A DNA stretch of 6,931 nt, taken from Bacteroidales bacterium. GTDB taxonomy: Bacteria > Bacteroidota > Bacteroidia > Bacteroidales > P3. Where the stretch lies: the NCBI GenBank assembly GCA_031286005.1, contig JAITVC010000284.1:1-6931 (forward strand). The letters are read 5' to 3'. This document shows, piece by piece, positions 1-6,931 of the stretch (position 1 is the first letter of the stretch; each line of letters starts with the position of its first letter). The notes beneath the pieces are model-generated. The model searched no databases, had not been told where the DNA came from, and worked only from the letters and a program-made list of their open reading frames with translations. The position numbers and the translations under genes are program-made.

Positions 1-1780
1 CCTCTTTGAAACCAATTTTTGCACAAAGTTCAAACGACAATGCATCGGAATCGACTGCGTGGAAACTACCGTCAATAATGCGAACTTTGAAACCTTCGAG
101 CGGATAACCGGCCAATACACCATTGTCCAAACACGCTTTGAAACCTTTTTCAATAGCCGGAATAAACTCTTTCGGAATATTGCCACCCTTAACTTCGTTA
201 ACGAAAGTAAGACCTTTTGCACCTTCTTCGTTTGGCGAAATTTCAAAAACAATATCCGCAAATTTACCACGTCCACCAGTTTGTTTTTTGTACACTTCAC
301 GGTGTTGAACCGGAACAGTGATAGCCTCTTTGTAAGCTACTTGCGGACGGCCTTGGTTACATTCCACTTTAAATTCACGTTTCATACGGTCAAGCAACAC
401 ATCCAAGTGCAACTCGCCCATACCGCTGATGATAGTTTGTCCCGAATTTTCGTCCGTTTTCACAGTAAAAGTTGGGTCTTCTTCGGCTAATTTGATCAAC
501 GCATTGGTCATTTTTTCAACGTCGGCTTGTGTCAATGGCTCAACCGAAATAGAAATTACCGGATCTGGGAAAGTCATCGATTCAAGAATAATCGGATGGT
601 TTTCATCGCACAACGTATTACCTGTTTTGATTTCTTTAAAACCAACGGCCGCGCCAATATCTCCCGCCTCGATAAAATCAATCGGATTTTGTTTATTCGA
701 GTGCATTTGCATAATGCGCGAAATGCGTTCTTTTTTTCCTGTGGATGCATTCAACACATAAGAACCGGCATCCAAACGACCAGAATACACGCGGAAGAAC
801 GCAATACGTCCAACAAACGGGTCTGTGGCAATTTTGAAAGCCAATGCTGAAAACGGCTCTTTCGGATCCGGTTTGCGCATCTCTTCTACATCTGTTTTAG
901 GGTTAATTCCCTTCACAGCTTCAACATCCAACGGGCTTGGCAAATAGCGCATAACACCATCCAACAAACGTTGAACACCTTTATTTTTGAAAGCCGAGCC
1001 ACACATAACCGGCGTGATTCGCATTTCAACGGTTGCCTTACGCACCATCGCTATCACTTCATCTTCGGTTATCGAATCCGGATCTTCAAAATATTTCTCC
1101 ATCAACTTATCATCTTCTTCGGCTGCACCTTCAAACAATTTAGCGCGATATTCGGCTGCAACATCTTTCAAATCCTCCGGAACAGGCACTTCGTGCATCG
1201 TTACGCCTTTATCATCGTCCCAAATGAACGCTTTGTTGGCAATCAAATCCACAACTCCCTTAAACGATTCTTCTTGTCCGATGGGGATCTGAAGCGGAAC
1301 GGGATTAGCACCGAGTTTTTCTTTAATTTGACCAACTACGTTGAAAAAATCTGCACCCGTACGGTCCATTTTATTTACAAACGCAATACGTGGTACTTGA
1401 TATTTATTGGCTTGACGCCAAACCGTTTCGGATTGCGGTTGAACACCGCCTACTGCGCAAAACAAAGCCACAGCGCCATCCAAAACACGCAATGAACGTT
1501 CTACCTCTACGGTAAAATCCACGTGTCCCGGGGTATCAATCAAGTTAATTTTATATTCGTTATTGTTATACGTCCAAAACACCGTTGTTGCTGCGGATGT
1601 AATCGTAATGCCGCGCTCTTGCTCTTGAGCCATCCAGTCCATGGTGGCCGAGCCATCGTGTGTTTCGCCGATTTTATGACTTTTACCGGTATAAAACAAG
1701 ATACGCTCCGACGTGGTTGTTTTCCCCGCGTCGATGTGTGCCATGATACCGATGTTTCTGGTGTGTTTTAAATCTGCCAT
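1..1780 (-). CDS. fusA: Elongation factor G, 3' part cut off by the window edge
   Basis: EF-G is the GTPase that drives tRNA-mRNA translocation on the ribosome and, with RRF, ribosome recycling. About 593 codons are present and no stop is reached, so domains I-III and most of IV are here; the end of IV and domain V (about 110-125 residues in relatives) lie beyond position 1. Visible motifs are the P-loop AHIDAGKTT (residues 14-22), switch I ERGITI (55-60), DTPGH (82-86) and NKMD (136-139). Further on are the EF-G-typical stretches [11 protein letters not shown] and [11 protein letters not shown]. The ATG at 1780 is chosen because the protein then opens [17 protein letters not shown], as in family members. 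The upstream leader is A/T-rich without a Shine-Dalgarno sequence, normal for Bacteroidota. It is the third gene of the str operon, 78 nt after rpsG, with a hairpin in that gap. No frameshift was seen in the stretches read; identification is firm. Confidence 0.97.
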
Positions 1781-1795
1781 TTTATTGTTTAATCG

Positions 1796-1816
1796 TTTAG
1801 TCTATATATAACTAAA
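1796..1816 (-). other. Small stem-loop just upstream of the fusA start
   Basis: TTTAGT (1796-1801) and ACTAAA (1811-1816) are a perfect 6-bp inverted repeat around a 9-nt A/T loop. In the transcript it ends 15 nt before the fusA ATG. Its 5' arm uses part of the U-run that follows the larger hairpin at 1816-1853, so the two elements adjoin and share one base pair position. The stem is A/T-rich and could be chance; a role in fusA translation or in tuning the neighbouring hairpin is inference only. Confidence 0.35.
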
Positions 1817-1853
1817 AAGAATGTAGCCGATCATTAAATCGTCTACATTCTTT
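1814..1853 (-). terminator. Strong hairpin with U-run between rpsG and fusA (attenuator or processing site?)
   Basis: A perfect 11-bp inverted repeat, AAAGAATGTAG (1816-1826) and CTACATTCTTT (1843-1853), continues after one C/T mismatch with four more pairs (CGAT/ATCG), leaving a 6-nt loop. Read in the operon's direction the stem begins 5 nt after the rpsG stop, and the 3' arm runs into five T's (1818-1814). That is the layout of an intrinsic terminator, although the stem is A/T-rich and lies inside an operon. Partial termination, an RNase processing site or 3'-end protection of the rpsL-rpsG message are all possible. No TAnnTTTG box lies between it and fusA. Confidence 0.6.
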
Positions 1854-1858
1854 ATATA

Positions 1859-2323
1859 CTATCTAAAGTGTGCAAATGCTTTATTTGCTTCTGCCATACG
1901 GTGTGTATCTTCTTTCTTTTTGAACGCAGCGCCTTCTTCTTTATAGGCTGCCATGATTTCGCCGGCTAATTTGAGCGCCATTGATTTTTCATTGCGTTTG
2001 CGTGCAAAACCAATCAAGTGTTTCATACCGATGGATTGTTTACGTTCGGGACGGATTTCCGTAGGAATTTGGAAGTTTGCTCCACCAATACGGCGGCTTT
2101 TCACTTCAACAGAAGGTGTTACGTTAGCCAGTGCTTTTTTCCACACTTCAAGACCATCTTCTTTGGTTTTTTCAGAAACCGTGTCGATTGCATCATAAAA
2201 AATTTGATAAGCCAAATTTTTCTTTCCTTCTAACATTAAGTTGTTTACAAACTTGGTAACCATTGATTCGCCGAATTTCGGATCCGGCAAAATAATCCGT
2301 TTTTTTGGTTTTGATTTTCTCAT
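1859..2323 (-). CDS. rpsG: 30S ribosomal protein S7
   Basis: S7 is a primary 16S rRNA-binding protein that nucleates the head of the 30S subunit and lies near the E site and mRNA exit channel. The 154-residue product has the normal length and sequence for Bacteroidetes S7. It opens [20 protein letters not shown], followed by [20 protein letters not shown] and the central [19 protein letters not shown], which leads into [13 protein letters not shown]. The C-terminus is basic and rich in Ala, Lys and Arg ([17 protein letters not shown]). The ATG at 2323 gives the family N-terminus. It is the second gene of the str operon, 127 nt after rpsL and 78 nt before fusA. In E. coli S7 represses its own operon by binding the rpsL-rpsG gap; the equivalent gap here is also long and foldable. 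Identification is firm, the regulation is inferred. Confidence 0.98.
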
Positions 2324-2450
2324 GTTTTCTTCAATAAATGATTTTTAACAGCGGCACATCATATATTATTGTGCATGTCGAATTTATTTACTCACGGGTG
2401 TTGTGGCGAACAGCTCTCATTCAATCACGAGACCCATCCTCTACCGTGTT
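2324..2450 (-). promoter_or_regulatory. Structured rpsL-rpsG gap, possible S7 feedback site
   Basis: This 127-nt gap has no promoter box. In the transcript, CACGG (plus-strand CCGTG, 2444-2448) can pair with CCGTG 46 nt downstream (plus-strand CACGG, 2393-2397). Part of it can instead pair locally with CGTG (plus-strand CACG, 2426-2429) in a hairpin that adds AGA/TCT and a two-base bulge. The two folds exclude each other. A separate 5-bp hairpin (GCACA 2354-2358, TGTGC 2370-2374) lies nearer the rpsG start. The E. coli S7 repressor site occupies the same intercistronic position, so an analogous role is plausible; no shared primary motif was established. Confidence 0.45.
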
Positions 2451-2828
2451 TTATTTTTTCTTAGGACGTTTTGTTCCGTATTTCGAGCGACGTTGATTTC
2501 TTCCGTTCACGCCCGATGTATCCAAAGCACCACGGATGATGTGATAACGAACACCCGGAAGATCTTTCACACGACCTCCGCGGATCATCACGATAGAGTG
2601 CTCTTGCAAGTTATGACCTTCACCCGGGATGTAAGCATTCACCTCTTTCGAGTTAGTTAAACGAACCCGTGCAACTTTACGCATCGCAGAGTTTGGTTTT
2701 TTCGGTGTTGTAGTGTACACACGCACACAAACCCCGCGCCGTTGAGGGCAAGAATCCAATGCAGGCGACTTACTTTTGTCGGTCATTTTCGTGCGACCTT
2801 TGCGAACTAATTGTTGAATTGTTGGCAT
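2451..2828 (-). CDS. rpsL: 30S ribosomal protein S12
   Basis: S12 sits at the decoding centre of the 30S subunit and controls codon-anticodon fidelity. The 125-residue product starts [12 protein letters not shown] and contains the hallmark loops [15 protein letters not shown] (37-51) and [13 protein letters not shown] (84-96), ending in a basic [12 protein letters not shown] tail. Lys43 and Lys88, where substitutions give streptomycin resistance, are unsubstituted; Asp89, the usual methylthiolation site, is present. An in-frame ATG at 2870 would add 14 residues ([14 protein letters not shown]). It is rejected because the family starts at MPT and because that ATG lies only about 7 nt from the predicted transcription start. 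The gene is first in the str operon. It has an A-rich leader of about 50 nt without a Shine-Dalgarno sequence. Confidence 0.98.
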
Positions 2829-2881
2829 TTTATTGATTTTGTTTAATTTTCTTTTTCCTATTTTTTTCAAAAATTGGAGTG

Positions 2882-2912
2882 CAAAGTTACAAAAAAAAAA
2901 TGAATTAACAAA
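2882..2912 (-). promoter_or_regulatory. Bacteroidota-type promoter of the str operon
   Basis: On the minus strand a TTTG -33 box (2912-2909) is followed after exactly 19 bp by TAACTTTG (2889-2882). This matches the sigma-ABfr consensus TTTG-N19ish-TAnnTTTG described for Bacteroides. The spacer contains a run of ten T's. Transcription should start near 2877, giving an rpsL leader of about 50 nt. Confidence 0.85.
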
Positions 2913-3010
2913 GCATCTTTAATAATTTTTTTTCAACCAGCATTTTTCATCTCCAATTTAAACATTTGCCGAGTCAGCATTTTGCACAATCAAATAGCAC
3001 GCATACCGCA
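2913..3010. other. Gap between the sulfur-transferase fusion gene and the str promoter
   Basis: These 98 nt follow the stop of the fusion gene and precede the str promoter. No gene and no convincing terminator was found; the best inverted repeat is a 3-4 bp stem near 2968-2980. The nonamer CAGCATTTT occurs twice about 37 bp apart (near 2939 and 2976). Read-through from the fusion gene into the str operon is therefore possible. Confidence 0.5.
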
Positions 3011-5458
3011 TTATATAAACAAATTCACATTAGCTCCCTCTGCCCGCTCCATATAAGTCGCAACCCCGCCCACAGTTACCTCATCCAACAATTCCTCTCG
3101 TTTCACACCCATCACATCCATCGACATCTGACAAGCGATAAACTCCACTCCGCTATCAATAGCCTGTTGCCGCAATATTTCCAGTGAAGCAATACCTTTC
3201 TTTTTCATAATATGGCGCATCATCCTGTCGCCAATGCCAAACATGCTCATTTTCGAAAGGTGCAATCGCAAAGAACTCGACGGCAACATCACCCCAAACA
3301 TCTTTCCAAAAATATCTTTCTCAACTTTAGGCTTCGAAACCTTCTTAATAACGTTTAATCCCCAAAATGTAAAGAAGATGGTCGTCTTATGGCCCGTAGC
3401 AGCGGCTCCGTTGGCCAACACAAATGTGGCAAGCGCCTTGTCTAAATCGTCGCTGAACATAATCAAAGTTTTGCCCTTATCGTCGCACGAAGTTACAACA
3501 TTACACACTTTGGGCGACCCTTTTTCAATCACAACAGTATACTTACCCTTTTCTTCCGAGTTGGATATAAGAATATGTCCGGTCGTATTGCACCACGCTT
3601 GAGCATCGCGAGAAAATCCCGCGTCAGTTGCCGTCATTTCAATGCGTTCGCCTTCCTCAATTGAATCAATCGCTTGTTTGATTTTCAAAATGGGACCGGG
3701 ACACTGCAATCCGCAGGCATCTATCTTTAAGGTTTTTATAGGTTGTGCCATCGGCTGGGGTTTCATATCGATTTTATGTTCCGCCATAACCTTTGGTTTC
3801 TGATTAGAAACCGGCGCTATGGCCGTTGAGTAGGTTTTATAGCCGCCCGAAAGGTTCTTTACGTTTTTAAATCCACGGGCAGAGAGTATCTTTTGTGCCA
3901 AGTAACCGCGAAGCCCTACGGCACAAAAAACATAAATAGGTTTGTCGGTCGGGATTTCATTCAAACGACCGCGCAATTCATCAAGCGGAATGTTCACGGC
4001 TCCCGCAATCGTGCCAAACGAATATTCCGCCGGTGTGCGGGTATCAAGCAAGAAAACCTCACTGCTGTTTGTCTTTTCCACATCACGCCACAAAACGGTC
4101 GACATCGTGCCATTAACGATGTTGTTGGCCACATAGCCTGCAATAGCAATCGGGTCTTTGGCAGACGAGAACGGCGGAGCATAAGCATGCTCCACTTTCA
4201 TCAGGTCGTAAACCGTACCGCCGTTTTTAATCAATAGTGCGATTTGGTCAATGCGCTTATCCACACCATCATAACCCACACTTTGAGCGCCGTAGAGTTT
4301 CCCTGTCTTAGGGTCGAAAGTTAACTTGATCGTCAACGGAAGTGCATCAGGATAATAGCTTGCATGAGAAGCCGAATGGGTGGTCGAACTTTCATGTTCA
4401 ATACCCATTTGTTTAAGGCGCTTTGCTGCAAGTCCCGTAGAAGCAACGGTTAGGTCAAAAACTTTGGCGATGGAAGTAGCGATCGCTCCCTCGTATTTTG
4501 TAACATTTCCAAATACCATGTTATCCGCCACAATACGCCCTTGACGATTAGCCGGATTGGCCAAATAATTCAAGTAAGGTTTGCCCGTCAACGGATGAGG
4601 AAACTCAATCGCATCACCCACAGCATAAATATCTTTAACCGATGTTTCGAGATAATCATCCACCCAAATACCGCCCGTTTCGCCGATTTTCACACCGGCC
4701 GCCTTTGCAAGCGTGGTTTCAGGACGAACGCCAATCGAAAGAATAACCATATCGGTGGTCAGCATTTCCCCGCCTTTAAAGAAGATATCGATTTTATCGC
4801 CCTTGCGTTCAAACCGCTCAACACTTTGTTCAAGAAAAAGCGAAACACCCTTTTGCAAAAGATGCTGGTGAACATGCGAAGCAATCGAAAAATCAACAGG
4901 CGCCATCACTTGGTTCCCCATTTCAACAACCGATACGTGCGCTCCCGCCGCATGCAGATTTTCCGCCATTTCCAAACCGATAAAGCCCGCTCCCACCACT
5001 ACCGCACGTTCAATCTTACGGGAAGTGATAAAGGTTTTAATTCGATCCGTATCCTCCACGTTGCGAAGCGTAAAAATACCTTCGCAGTCAATCCCATCCA
5101 ACGGCGGACGAACAGGCAAAGCCCCCGGCGAAAGCAGCAGTTTGTCGTAACTTTCCCCATAAGTTGACCCGTCCGCTCTACGGACAGTTAACGTTTTATT
5201 CGATGTATCAATAGCCACAACTTCACTCTCAACCCGCACATCAATATTAAAGCGCCCGCCAAACGAAGCAGGCGTCTGCAAAAACAGTCGTTCACGTTCA
5301 GCAATCGTACCGCCAATATAATAAGGCAAACCACAATTCGCATACGAGATATACTTACCCTTTTCAAGCACAACAATTTCCGCGAACTCATCCGCCCGGC
5401 GCAATCTCGCCGCCGCCGTTGCACCTCCCGCAACACCACCTACAATAACATGTTTCAT
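3011..5458 (-). CDS. CoA-disulfide/persulfide reductase fused to rhodanese, TusA and DsrE2 domains
   Basis: The 815-residue protein joins four sulfur-handling modules. Residues 1-450 are a pyridine nucleotide-disulfide oxidoreductase of the CoA-disulfide reductase type. They show the FAD-binding GGVAGGATAA (7-16), the single redox Cys42 in YANCGLPYYIGG, the NAD(P)-binding GAGFIGLEMAE (157-167), the FAD-contacting YAVGDAIE (278-285) and a dimerisation region with Tyr368/369 and Tyr426. Residues 455-550 are a rhodanese with active loop CAVGLR (Cys512). Residues 576-645 are TusA-like with CPGP (Cys586). Residues 660-815 are DsrE2-like with ACQMSMDVMG (Cys776). By family knowledge it should reduce CoA disulfide or persulfides with NAD(P)H and pass sulfane sulfur between domains; substrate and order of transfer are inferred. 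The start at 5458 gives the expected beta-strand and FAD motif and lies about 50 nt below a good promoter. The gene appears monocistronic and cytosolic, with no signal peptide. Confidence 0.93.
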   Translation of the reverse strand: MKHVIVGGVAGGATAAARLRRADEFAEIVVLEKGKYISYANCGLPYYIGGTIAERERLFLQTPASFGGRFNIDVRVESEVVAIDTSNKTLTVRRADGSTYGESYDKLLLSPGALPVRPPLDGIDCEGIFTLRNVEDTDRIKTFITSRKIERAVVVGAGFIGLEMAENLHAAGAHVSVVEMGNQVMAPVDFSIASHVHQHLLQKGVSLFLEQSVERFERKGDKIDIFFKGGEMLTTDMVILSIGVRPETTLAKAAGVKIGETGGIWVDDYLETSVKDIYAVGDAIEFPHPLTGKPYLNYLANPANRQGRIVADNMVFGNVTKYEGAIATSIAKVFDLTVASTGLAAKRLKQMGIEHESSTTHSASHASYYPDALPLTIKLTFDPKTGKLYGAQSVGYDGVDKRIDQIALLIKNGGTVYDLMKVEHAYAPPFSSAKDPIAIAGYVANNIVNGTMSTVLWRDVEKTNSSEVFLLDTRTPAEYSFGTIAGAVNIPLDELRGRLNEIPTDKPIYVFCAVGLRGYLAQKILSARGFKNVKNLSGGYKTYSTAIAPVSNQKPKVMAEHKIDMKPQPMAQPIKTLKIDACGLQCPGPILKIKQAIDSIEEGERIEMTATDAGFSRDAQAWCNTTGHILISNSEEKGKYTVVIEKGSPKVCNVVTSCDDKGKTLIMFSDDLDKALATFVLANGAAATGHKTTIFFTFWGLNVIKKVSKPKVEKDIFGKMFGVMLPSSSLRLHLSKMSMFGIGDRMMRHIMKKKGIASLEILRQQAIDSGVEFIACQMSMDVMGVKREELLDEVTVGGVATYMERAEGANVNLFI

Positions 5459-5512
5459 AGCTATCCTTTTTTTATGTTTTACAAAAATGCATTTTCACTG
5501 AAAACCACCTCA

Positions 5513-5544
5513 CAAAGATACAAATTGTTTTTCAATAAAACAAA
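5513..5544 (-). promoter_or_regulatory. Bacteroidota-type promoter of the sulfur-transferase fusion gene
   Basis: On the minus strand TTTG (5544-5541) precedes TATCTTTG (5520-5513) with a 20-bp spacer, matching the sigma-ABfr consensus. The predicted start near 5507 leaves a leader of about 50 nt to the ATG at 5458. No operator-like dyad is evident between box and start codon. Confidence 0.8.
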
Positions 5545-5545
5545 T

Positions 5546-5568
5546 CCGTACAAGCGCCCAGCATACGG
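5546..5568. other. Weak inverted repeat between the PIN gene and the fusion-gene promoter
   Basis: CCGTA (5546-5550) and TACGG (5564-5568) form a perfect 5-bp stem around 13 nt. A T-run follows on the plus strand (5571-5575), and a looser T-rich stretch follows on the minus strand. It could be a terminator for the toxin operon, but the stem is short and the loop long. Two bases to the left lies the -33 box of the next promoter. Confidence 0.3.
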
Positions 5569-5640
5569 CCTTTTTCATACAGATGTCTCGACGGAGTTTA
5601 TCCTGATCAGAACCGAAGCCTGCCGGAATAAAAAGCGGTG

Positions 5641-6054
5641 TTATTTCTTATTATAAATGAAATTTAATTTCTGTTTCCGATAAGCCTCAAATTTGCGGTC
5701 GCTACTGATAAGCGGAATCTTTTCAGTTATGGCTTGGGCAATAATCAAGTGGTCTGAAGGGTCGTTGTGCGCAGGTGCAAGATCTAAACGAGCCATGGTT
5801 TGCAAATGTTCTTTTTTGACATAATTGATAAAGTAACCCAACTCATGCTCAATCGTATAAAAAATATCTTGCACATTCTTTAATTTATGGGGACGTATCT
5901 TACCGATATGAAACAAATGAATCAATTCTTTTATGCTCTCCGAACTTATATAAATAGAATTTTCATAATCCCAAACAATATCATAAACTTCTTTAGAAAG
6001 ATTGTCATTCTCCAAAATATACAAAAGAATATTGGTGTCTATAAGGTACCTCAT
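5641..6054 (-). CDS. PIN-domain ribonuclease, VapC-type toxin
   Basis: The 137-residue protein is a single PIN domain, the Mg-dependent RNase fold of VapC toxins, which usually cut tRNA or rRNA loops. The acidic catalytic set is visible: Asp6 in YLIDTNILLY, Glu43 in SSESIKELIHL, Asp98 and Asp101 in HNDPSDHLIIAQA, and Asp119 in LISSDRKFEAY. The length is normal for the family and nothing suggests decay. The ATG at 6054 puts the first catalytic Asp at residue 6 as usual. It lies one base after the stop of the upstream 50-codon gene, which argues for translational coupling. A type II toxin role rests on family and gene order; target RNA cannot be read from sequence. A non-toxin housekeeping PIN nuclease is the less likely alternative. 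Confidence 0.9.
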   Translation of the reverse strand: MRYLIDTNILLYILENDNLSKEVYDIVWDYENSIYISSESIKELIHLFHIGKIRPHKLKNVQDIFYTIEHELGYFINYVKKEHLQTMARLDLAPAHNDPSDHLIIAQAITEKIPLISSDRKFEAYRKQKLNFIYNKK

Positions 6055-6055
6055 A

Positions 6056-6208
6056 CTACTTCAAAACAGCTTTGTGATCTAAGATAGTAATAATACCTTT
6101 GGGATATTTTAACCAAAATTCAGCCGTTTTTGATAACCTTTTCGGTGCTGCCGATGTGCTTTTCTTTACTAAAGATTTCGTCTTTTTTTGTATAATAGTT
6201 GCTGCCAT
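6056..6208 (-). CDS. 50-residue basic protein, probable antitoxin of the PIN gene
   Basis: This short frame runs from the ATG at 6208 to a TAG at 6058-6056, one base before the PIN start. The product begins MAATIIQKKTKSLVKKSTSA and ends EFWLKYPKGIITILDHKAVLK. Residues 1-28 are Lys/Ser/Thr-rich and probably unstructured or nucleic-acid binding. Residues 29-50 hold an aromatic, hydrophobic patch that could form a short helix and strand and clamp the toxin. No ribbon-helix-helix, AbrB, Phd or MerR pattern is recognisable. The antitoxin call rests on position, size, charge, tight spacing and a promoter directly upstream (TAACTTTG ending 24 nt before the ATG). Family assignment is left open. Confidence 0.72.
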   Translation of the reverse strand: MAATIIQKKTKSLVKKSTSAAPKRLSKTAEFWLKYPKGIITILDHKAVLK

Positions 6209-6231
6209 AATAAATTCCTTTTTTGATTTTG

Positions 6232-6239
6232 CAAAGTTA
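6232..6239 (-). promoter_or_regulatory. -7 box of the toxin-antitoxin promoter
   Basis: TAACTTTG on the minus strand (6239-6232) matches the Bacteroidota -7 consensus and is the same octamer as at the str operon. No clear TTTG lies 18-20 bp upstream; that stretch is A/T-rich. Transcription should start near 6227, giving a leader of about 20 nt for the 50-codon gene. No obvious operator dyad was found around it. Confidence 0.7.
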
Positions 6240-6290
6240 CAAAAAAATCCCCAATAAAAAAACTTAAAAAGTGTTAAAGGTACGAAAAAA

Positions 6291-6311
6291 ATTAAAAATT
6301 AAAAATTAAAA
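6291..6311. repeat. Three tandem copies of ATTAAAA
   Basis: Perfect 7-bp units lie at 6291-6297, 6298-6304 and 6305-6311, inside a longer A/T-rich stretch (6241-6315). Such A/T stretches are common between Bacteroidales genes; no function can be assigned. Confidence 0.85.
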
Positions 6312-6317
6312 AAAATA

Positions 6318-6349
6318 GGGTTAAAGGGTTAAGAGGTTAAAGGGTTAAT
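6318..6349. repeat. Four tandem 8-bp units of GGGTTAAA
   Basis: Four contiguous 8-bp units fill 32 bp: GGGTTAAA, GGGTTAAG, AGGTTAAA and GGGTTAAT. They differ at the first or last base only. They start 6 bp after the 7-mer array. Confidence 0.85.
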
Positions 6350-6384
6350 TATGAACAGTAAAATTCCTAATAGATTGATTATGA

Positions 6385-6570
6385 TATACAGGAGTATAGC
6401 AAGTGTATACGAGGTATAGCTTAGGTATAGCGCAGGTATATAGAACGGCCGAACAATGGGTATAAAATGGGTATAGCGAGGGTATAGAAACAGTATAGAA
6501 ACAGTATAGAAACAGTATAGAAACAGTATAGAAACAGCAAACAAACAGCAAAGAAACAGCAAAGAAAGTG
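6385..6570. repeat. Array A: 11-bp repeats, five perfect copies of TATAGAAACAG
   Basis: Five identical 11-mers start at 6483, 6494, 6505, 6516 and 6527. Three diverged units continue without a phase change (6538, 6549, 6560; for example CAAAGAAACAG). On the left, TATA-starting units occur at 6385, 6395, 6406, 6415, 6426, 6437/6439, 6461 and 6472. They are mostly 11 bp apart, with one 22-bp step and a few 9-10 bp steps, and have the form TATAGCnnnGG. The perfect core suggests recent expansion and the flanks older, diverged copies. The array is not coding: the frames that read through it on the minus strand simply translate the repeat. Confidence 0.92.
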
Positions 6571-6630
6571 TAATTAATTGCATAATATTCAACTACCTAC
6601 AAAACAACAAAATCACAACTTCCAAATTAC

Positions 6631-6648
6631 AAGTATTTTACAATACTT
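6631..6648. other. Short A/T hairpin AAGTATT-TTAC-AATACTT
   Basis: A perfect 7-bp inverted repeat (6631-6637 and 6642-6648) with a TTAC loop lies between repeat arrays A and B. No T-run follows on either strand, so a terminator role is doubtful. It may be a protein-binding dyad or chance in A/T-rich DNA. Confidence 0.45.
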
Positions 6649-6657
6649 AAATAGACT

Positions 6658-6731
6658 GTTGTAGGATGTTTGTTCGATGTTTATAGGGTACTCGTTCGGT
6701 ACTTGTTCGGTATTCGTAGGGACCAAGTCCG
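6658..6731. repeat. Array B: diverged 11-bp repeats around GGTACTCGTTC
   Basis: Four consecutive 11-mers begin with GG at 6687, 6698, 6709 and 6720: GGTACTCGTTC, GGTACTTGTTC, GGTATTCGTAG and GGACCAAGTCC. Two further 11-mers precede them, GTTGTAGGATG (6658) and TTTGTTCGATG (6669), with one shortened unit between. The period equals that of array A, while most of the unit differs. Confidence 0.8.
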
Positions 6732-6803
6732 GTCAAAAAATAAGGCAACCGGCTATTTTGTCAGTCTTAAAACGTGTTCTATCACGAGCAAAATTTGTAA
6801 GAA

Positions 6804-6869
6804 AGGGAGATTAGAGAGAGATTAGAGGAACAATAGAGGATGACTGGAGGACGAGCGGAGGATAAAAGT
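6804..6869. repeat. Array C: six purine-rich 11-bp repeats next to a promoter
   Basis: Six consecutive 11-mers begin at 6804, 6815, 6826, 6837, 6848 and 6859, with consensus near AGGAnnAnTRG: AGGGAGATTAG, AGAGAGATTAG, AGGAACAATAG, AGGATGACTGG, AGGACGAGCGG, AGGATAAAAGT. The plus strand is strongly purine-biased here. The last unit ends 6 bp before the TTTG -33 box of the rightward promoter, where an activator or UP-like element would be expected. Confidence 0.8.
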
Positions 6870-6875
6870 GCCGTT

Positions 6876-6905
6876 TTTGTGTTTGGGAATTTTTTTGTAT
6901 CTTTG
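6876..6905 (+). promoter_or_regulatory. Rightward Bacteroidota-type promoter at the window edge
   Basis: TTTG (6876-6879), an 18-bp spacer with a T-run, and TATCTTTG (6898-6905) match the sigma-ABfr consensus on the plus strand. The expected start is near 6910-6912. An ATG follows at 6914 and opens a frame to the edge (MIKNKS), but that would leave almost no leader, so the true start codon may lie further right. It is the only plus-strand promoter seen. Confidence 0.78.
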
Positions 6906-6931
6906 CACCCGCTATGATCAAAAATAAGTCT

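Follow-up and report, generated by a model that had tools for sequence, protein, structure and literature searches.

Arrays of 11-bp direct repeats with changing words in Bacteroidota, and their association with an orphan gene family

Three consecutive arrays of direct repeats, each with an 11-bp period but with different repeated words, lie in a 6,931-nt stretch of a Bacteroidales genome (contig JAITVC010000284.1, positions 1 to 6,931; this whole stretch is here called the window). Arrays of the same period with other words occur elsewhere in Bacteroidota, in many cases just downstream of a gene family that we call X. The explanation that we prefer, tentatively and with less than even confidence, takes the tract for a cluster of iteron-like sites, placed one helical turn apart, for a putative protein of a dispersed element. 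It builds on the period itself, on a contrast between word and spacer in one family of arrays, on the link to X and on a defined segment end in one group of X copies. A constant period combined with a repeated word that changes between copies is unusual, and no account of these 11-bp arrays was found in the portions of the literature covered by our search, including the accessible part of PMC5771137.

Over positions 6350-6880 the fraction of matching bases at lag 11 was 0.53 (z = 13.9 against 300 dinucleotide-preserving shuffles, which did not reproduce the signal). Lags 22 and 33 came next, with z of 8.2 and 9.6, and every remaining lag from 2 to 39 had a z of 2.2 or less. Tandem Repeats Finder (TRF) also placed the period at 11, in six rows between 6412 and 6863. 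The original prediction of three arrays, A, B and C, with a common 11-bp period was borne out, each block being periodic when taken alone: lag-11 z was 12.8 for A (6385-6567), 6.5 for its variable half (6385-6481), 5.7 for B (6655-6722) and 5.6 for C (6790-6868). The gaps between the arrays were not periodic; lag-11 z was 1.4 in 6568-6660, and in 6723-6790 lag 11 fell outside the seven best lags.

Array A proved to be two blocks rather than one, and all blocks are given here on the forward strand. The first, A1 (about 6385..6482; TRF 6412-6440 and 6455-6475, and unit tiling), consists of drifting GTATAGnnnnn units with phase slips. It is followed by the near-regular A2 (6483..6570), in which five GTATAGAAACA units pass into GCAAAGAAACA units; the TRF row for this block (6482-6567) has period 11, 7.8 copies and 94% matches. 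Array B has about seven units of the GTACTCGTTCG type (6655..6731; TRF 6687-6717, and unit tiling), and array C has six, roughly YRGAGGAnnAn (6801..6867; TRF 6807-6827 and 6836-6863, and unit tiling). The leading GGTA that had been ascribed to many A and B units is found in part of each and is missing from the remainder. No inverted arms were seen by eye in any of the arrays, which are, like iterons, tandem direct repeats at a constant and roughly helical spacing.

The tract is situated between a small ORF (6056..6208, reverse strand, from the ORF list) and a gene starting at 6914. From reading of the ORFs, the left part of the window holds the str operon (EF-G, S7, S12), and an 815-aa fusion gene with Pyr_redox_2, rhodanese, TusA and DsrE_2 domains occupies 3011-5458 on the reverse strand. 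Beside the tract, on the same strand, is a PIN-domain toxin gene of VapC type (5641..6054; Pfam PF01850, E 2.1e-13, with NCBIfam matches below the cut-off). The small ORF precedes it, has no match in Pfam or NCBIfam and, judged by position only, is perhaps the antitoxin. Shortly before array A there are AT-rich heptamer and octamer tracts (6287..6348, forward strand; TRF period 7 at 6287-6312 and period 8 at 6317-6348). About 10 bp after the end of array C, the forward strand reads TTTG, an 18-bp gap and TATCTTTG (6876..6905), which resembles what we take to be the Bacteroidota promoter consensus. The gene that follows (MIKNKS..., 6914..6931, forward strand) is cut off by the end of the window after six codons.

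This setting could be that of an operator, in which an OmpR- or SARP-like regulator binds head-to-tail at 11-bp steps and controls the gene at 6914, perhaps also the toxin gene. The promoter-like sequence agrees with such an arrangement, and so do the sites of SARP regulators, which according to the part of PMC10936776 that was accessible consist of direct repeats spaced by 11 or 22 bp, that is one or two turns. The presence of three words within one tract does not agree with it, and with the evidence on array positions given below we regard an operator as rather unlikely.

The original prediction also expected related loci to hold tracts of this period with variable units. Such arrays, with other words, do occur in Bacteroidota, but the closest relative has none in the DNA sampled. 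This was a Tannerella MAG (L001), whose 815-aa protein is 88% identical (80 loci of 199 relatives were compared). Upstream of its 815-aa gene there are a different sequence, other genes and no array, so the position of the array is not conserved at this distance. A 202-kb sample of the same genome held no lag-11 array, and the genome is also without X.

Pooled intergenic DNA of the 80 loci (145 kb) had its autocorrelation peaks beyond lag 4 at lags 21 and 22 (z 9.6 and 8.5), and lag 11 was weak (0.8). As discrete intergenic arrays we counted 40 at lag 22, 21 at lag 7, 19 at lag 21, 10 at lag 23 and three at lag 11, two of these being AT-rich; the arrays of L046 and L007 are left out of the lag-11 count, probably because they are covered by spurious ORFs. 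Arrays with a period of 20-23 bp numbered 69 in 40 of the 80 Bacteroidales loci (for example L057:16745-16900, L024:13358-13513 and L038:4719-4824), and many of those at lags 21-23 carry, by eye, palindromic words specific to the locus. In 200 kb of E. coli K-12 neither threshold gave any intergenic array at lag 11 or lag 22, and the 21.4 kb of intergenic DNA within a 154-kb sample of three X-array genomes contained a single lag-11 array. Thus 11-bp arrays are not a generic bacterial feature, and in the intergenic DNA of relatives other periods are commoner than 11.

A serious rival to the preferred explanation is neutral slippage, which would duplicate 11-bp units that drift then diversifies, so that the tracts persist without function in intergenic DNA. 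Array A2 is near-perfect and is probably a recent expansion, as slippage would give, whereas the lack of lag-11 arrays in the E. coli sample is not what it would lead us to expect. Weighing these points with those on X and on the Bacteroides arrays below, we consider neutral minisatellites possible, though on the unlikely side.

A search for the GTATAG pattern over 123 genomes of the family gave matches in 18, as compared to 27 for the reversed control (counted by rows), which means that single matches carry no information. Runs of consecutive units were found in six genomes (G117, G124, G130, G136, G137 and G140), and seven of the loci fetched (L215-L219, L221 and L222) had lag-11 arrays. A fourfold GGTA pattern matched six of the 123 genomes and its reversed control five; two of the matches are within genes (G065, G100), and that in G107 is a real 11-bp family. 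The ORFs of L159 and L157 (from G100 and G065) contain 11-bp repeats of GGTACTTGTTG and GGTAACTGTCG units, similar to array B of the window. In L223 of G140, a segment with GTATAG units that reaches into the 3' end of a PIN-like gene is repeated about 1 kb away (190-290 and 1180-1290).

The window arrays were scored, under joint column permutation, by a profile built from 31 distinct units of GTATAG type in relatives; A2 (p 0.004) and A1 (p 0.049) matched, and C (p 0.118) and B (p 0.342) gave no significant match. By these values array A has the word of the X-linked arrays, and B and C have their period and build only, which does not support the earlier suggestion that one ancestral 11-mer expanded three times. 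The window itself has no similarity to X (best tblastn E 1.7), and no X gene was found beside the array, the gene at 6914 being truncated. Nor was a binding protein or an enzyme of such an element recognised in the window.

X is a 186-aa orphan gene belonging to no Pfam family, and in five of the seven loci with lag-11 arrays the array lies 3' of it. A search with X matched 11 of 19 genomes, and a composite query matched 8 of 296 genomes of the phylum. Lag-11 arrays were present in the 300 nt after the X stop codon at 27 of 47 loci, in Tannerella-type genomes and beyond; 19 of these 27 come from a set where the GTATAG pattern had already matched 13 of 19 genomes, and the other eight are among 19 loci selected solely for their X gene. 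The loci are not independent, several being near-identical or paralogous; in a few cases the contig stops shortly after the gene. The same downstream 300 nt contained no arrays at lags 8-10 or 12-15, and the farther flanks, 91 kb in all, had no lag-11 array. The 300 nt preceding the gene had four arrays at lag 11 and four at lag 14. Neutral slippage does not account readily for a strong association with one gene family in which lag 11 alone is found downstream.

The words of the X-linked arrays differ (GTATAGAATGA, GTATAGGATCT, ACCATACAGAC, ACGAAGACGAA, AGCGAAGGATA, TTCGAACACAC, CTCGGAGGATC, GTCGAAGGAAG, ACCTTACACGC, AGTCTAGAAGC and others), even between the X copies of one genome (L228, L240 and L246 of G136), and this makes a single binding protein a strained assumption. 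By eye, several X copies are followed by a terminator-like hairpin and then by the array, and the X-linked arrays examined look direct only. A position downstream of the gene, in several copies past such a hairpin, speaks against an operator. No downstream array is present at the remaining 20 of the 47 X loci, which include all those of G499, G693, G566 and G701, and L274 of G618 (52% identity).

At E <= 1e-5 there were 1531 homologues of X. Among the 120 listed, all but one are named hypothetical protein, and the organism, where named, is mostly Tannerella sp. from metagenomes. In the AlphaFold model the C-terminus is Ig-like and the N-terminus is of low confidence; the Foldseek list is led by Ig-like matches and includes no DNA-binding domain beyond Rel-homology Ig folds. 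A viral origin of X was considered and rejected, as none of 52 IMG/VR stretches with a pattern match encodes an X relative and no PHROG was found.

Comparison of the X copies in the G117/G136/G137 group revealed a common sequence which begins 85-136 nt before X and continues to 90-130 nt after the stop codon, into the array. Past the array the flanks are unrelated, and the 5' ends differ between copies (L243 and L251 have 1.5 kb of upstream sequence in common and were counted as one duplicated site). Thus a shared body with defined ends at unrelated sites, as in a dispersed element, was found in this group, and it was not found for L231, L235 and L239 from three genomes, where the similarity extends beyond the array by 13 to about 65 nt. 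L275, L277 and L282 are likewise alike beyond the array, and both sets may be orthologous sites. Only the last 43 and 20 codons of X are kept in L252 and L253, away from contig ends, and the partial copies L242, L250 and L251 lack an array. A stretch of about 47 bp that lies upstream of both L226 and L227 recurs in L241 at a different distance from X. A constant array end and a variable other end suggest, from copies taken mostly from metagenome assemblies, that the X segment is a one-ended element. It is conceivable, and in our view improbable, that the 11-bp arrays in general are the constant end (origin-like iterons or an insertion-made tail) of undescribed one-ended mobile elements of Bacteroidota which carry X, perhaps DUF6266, are truncated on the 5' side when they insert, and acquire a new word from copy to copy as the 11-bp step is held.

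DUF6266 genes, to which X gives no match and on which the literature search found no publication, have a weaker link to the arrays, which is also a point against neutral slippage. A lag-11 array lies in the 300 nt upstream of 5 of 12 such loci and downstream of none of them. CTCCGTA words precede the DUF6266 genes of L304 and L089, the latter having been found through this word. The upstream position at these five loci is in favour of an operator.

The CTCCGTA family itself belongs to the Bacteroides oleiciplenus / timonensis / cellulosilyticus group, with L038 and L046 as leads. Allowing two mismatches or fewer, the pattern had 110, 127 and 67 overlapping matches in G013, G014 and G015, one to five in G004, G005 and G011, and none in the other 12 of 18 genomes; its reverse had no match in the 18. 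As a general trait of Bacteroidaceae the arrays were discounted, since they were present in 4 of 301 drawn genomes. Forty stretches of G013 and G015, centred on such arrays, chosen by the word CTCCGTA and so uninformative on other words, contained 39 clusters. One word at 39 loci in two genomes is regulon-like, as an operator would require, with the reservation that the loci were chosen by that word. The arrays were in divergent gaps in 16 of 39 cases, as compared to 46 of 181 gaps without an array, an enrichment that is not significant (p 0.076) and so gives an operator no help. In L333 the array is seen by eye between a stop codon and a terminator-like hairpin, which counts against an operator. 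A role as terminators at convergent genes was not supported (convergent 3/39 with an array, 24/181 without).

Within 223 interior tiles of this family, the positions of the TCCGTA word were 87-100% conserved and those of the spacer 35-69%, so that the uniform variability of a neutral minisatellite was not seen in the CTCCGTA family, where it was measured. Between species, seven ortholog pairs had substitutions at 41 of 398 word, 101 of 394 spacer and 132 of 1663 flank positions; word positions were set by one mismatch or fewer, which lowers word divergence and favours the contrast, and the pairs overlap, some loci being used in two. The misoriented pair L105/L176 was dropped and columns with conflicting labels were excluded. 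Nine of 11 gaps inside aligned arrays (eight pairs) were multiples of 11, the other two being 1 and 43, as compared to none of nine outside the arrays in the same alignments. Gaps of whole units are also what slippage would produce, and so is the finding that an orthologous site can have or lack an array, whereas the unequal conservation of word and spacer is not. Comparison supports the earlier idea that the sequence drifts under a constant step of about one helical turn, both by the different words across Bacteroidota and, in this family, by words that change more slowly than spacers and by the whole-unit gaps. An empty-site comparison established no target duplications, the flanks being too diverged.

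At the rnpB-adjacent locus, identified by reading, the units of the L038 array differ from those of the L046 array, and the array of L047 is shorter. At one orthologous site of two Bacteroides species, an 11-bp-period hairpin array in one (L181:11576-11653) is replaced by a 7-bp-period hairpin array in the other (L147:9917-10074), as judged by eye. Also by eye, elements of G005 (L104, L113, L116) and G004 (L084) have CTCCATACC- or CTCCGTACC-type arms around a similar core, which centres on CAGCTGGAGCG(T/A)AAAAAAG.

In 37 of the 39 clusters a TCCGTA arm is followed by a loop and an inverted TACGGA arm, and this raises the question of whether the arrays work at the RNA level, by forming hairpins in a transcript or structure in a 3' UTR. 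Arms that belong to the same element also have spacers in common (47.7, against 31.5 +- 3.9 for swapped arms, in 29 arrays). Spacer order adds little to this (47.7 against 42.7 +- 2.1), the window and X-linked arrays look direct only, and an Rfam search of the window gave nothing at gathering scores, which together make an RNA-level element improbable to a high degree.

Returning to the cluster of sites for a putative protein, a spacing of one helical turn would let the protein stay on a single face of the DNA, reading about 6-7 bp in each turn and tolerating about 4 bp between sites. The array may then be the recognition site of a DNA-processing protein, initiator- or transposase-like, of a dispersed element, and the word and its cognate protein would diverge together. 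Array A of the window could be a member or relic of such an element, beside a toxin gene, and arrays B and C are placed in the same class by period and build only. As for the helically phased protein-binding tract that was originally proposed, the build of the arrays fits, and protein binding is a candidate reading of it; mobility of the element is likewise what we infer. The 20 X loci without an array, the lack of a recognised DNA-binding fold in X and the absence of X from the window count against the preferred explanation, and the inverted arms of the CTCCGTA elements set them apart from the window arrays as seen by eye. The link to one uncharacterised family gives a handle, since a cognate protein is to be expected from the arrays and X is a candidate part of a new element. 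Bacteroides isolates rich in CTCCGTA elements make binding and mobility open to experiment.

Among known systems, the accessible parts of the sources describe RepB of pMV158 as binding three tandem 11-bp repeats, and ParR of R1 as needing two 11-bp repeats, with repeats that vary between plasmid systems (PMC9426499). Plasmid iterons and ParR-parC resemble the present arrays in their short direct repeats with family-specific words and, by eye, in the hairpin that precedes the array of several X copies. They differ in that the arrays described here are chromosomal and in many copies, and X has no recognised DNA-binding fold. In Porphyromonas gingivalis a minisatellite is reported inside a MITE (PMC4596501, from the part accessible), also a dispersed Bacteroidales element with tandem repeats, a likeness in general description. 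Operator boxes of the SARP and OmpR type resemble our arrays as direct repeats one or two turns apart. In such boxes about 7 bases are read and 4 form the spacer, and an operator has few repeats at a promoter and one word per regulator. The arrays here are longer and often 3' of genes. REP and BIME sequences are dispersed intergenic palindromes. LINE 3' repeat tails and the one-ended IS91 and Helitron elements have a constant repeat-bearing end and a variable, truncated other end, and the X segment, known here from sequence copies, is similar to them in its constant array end and variable other end.
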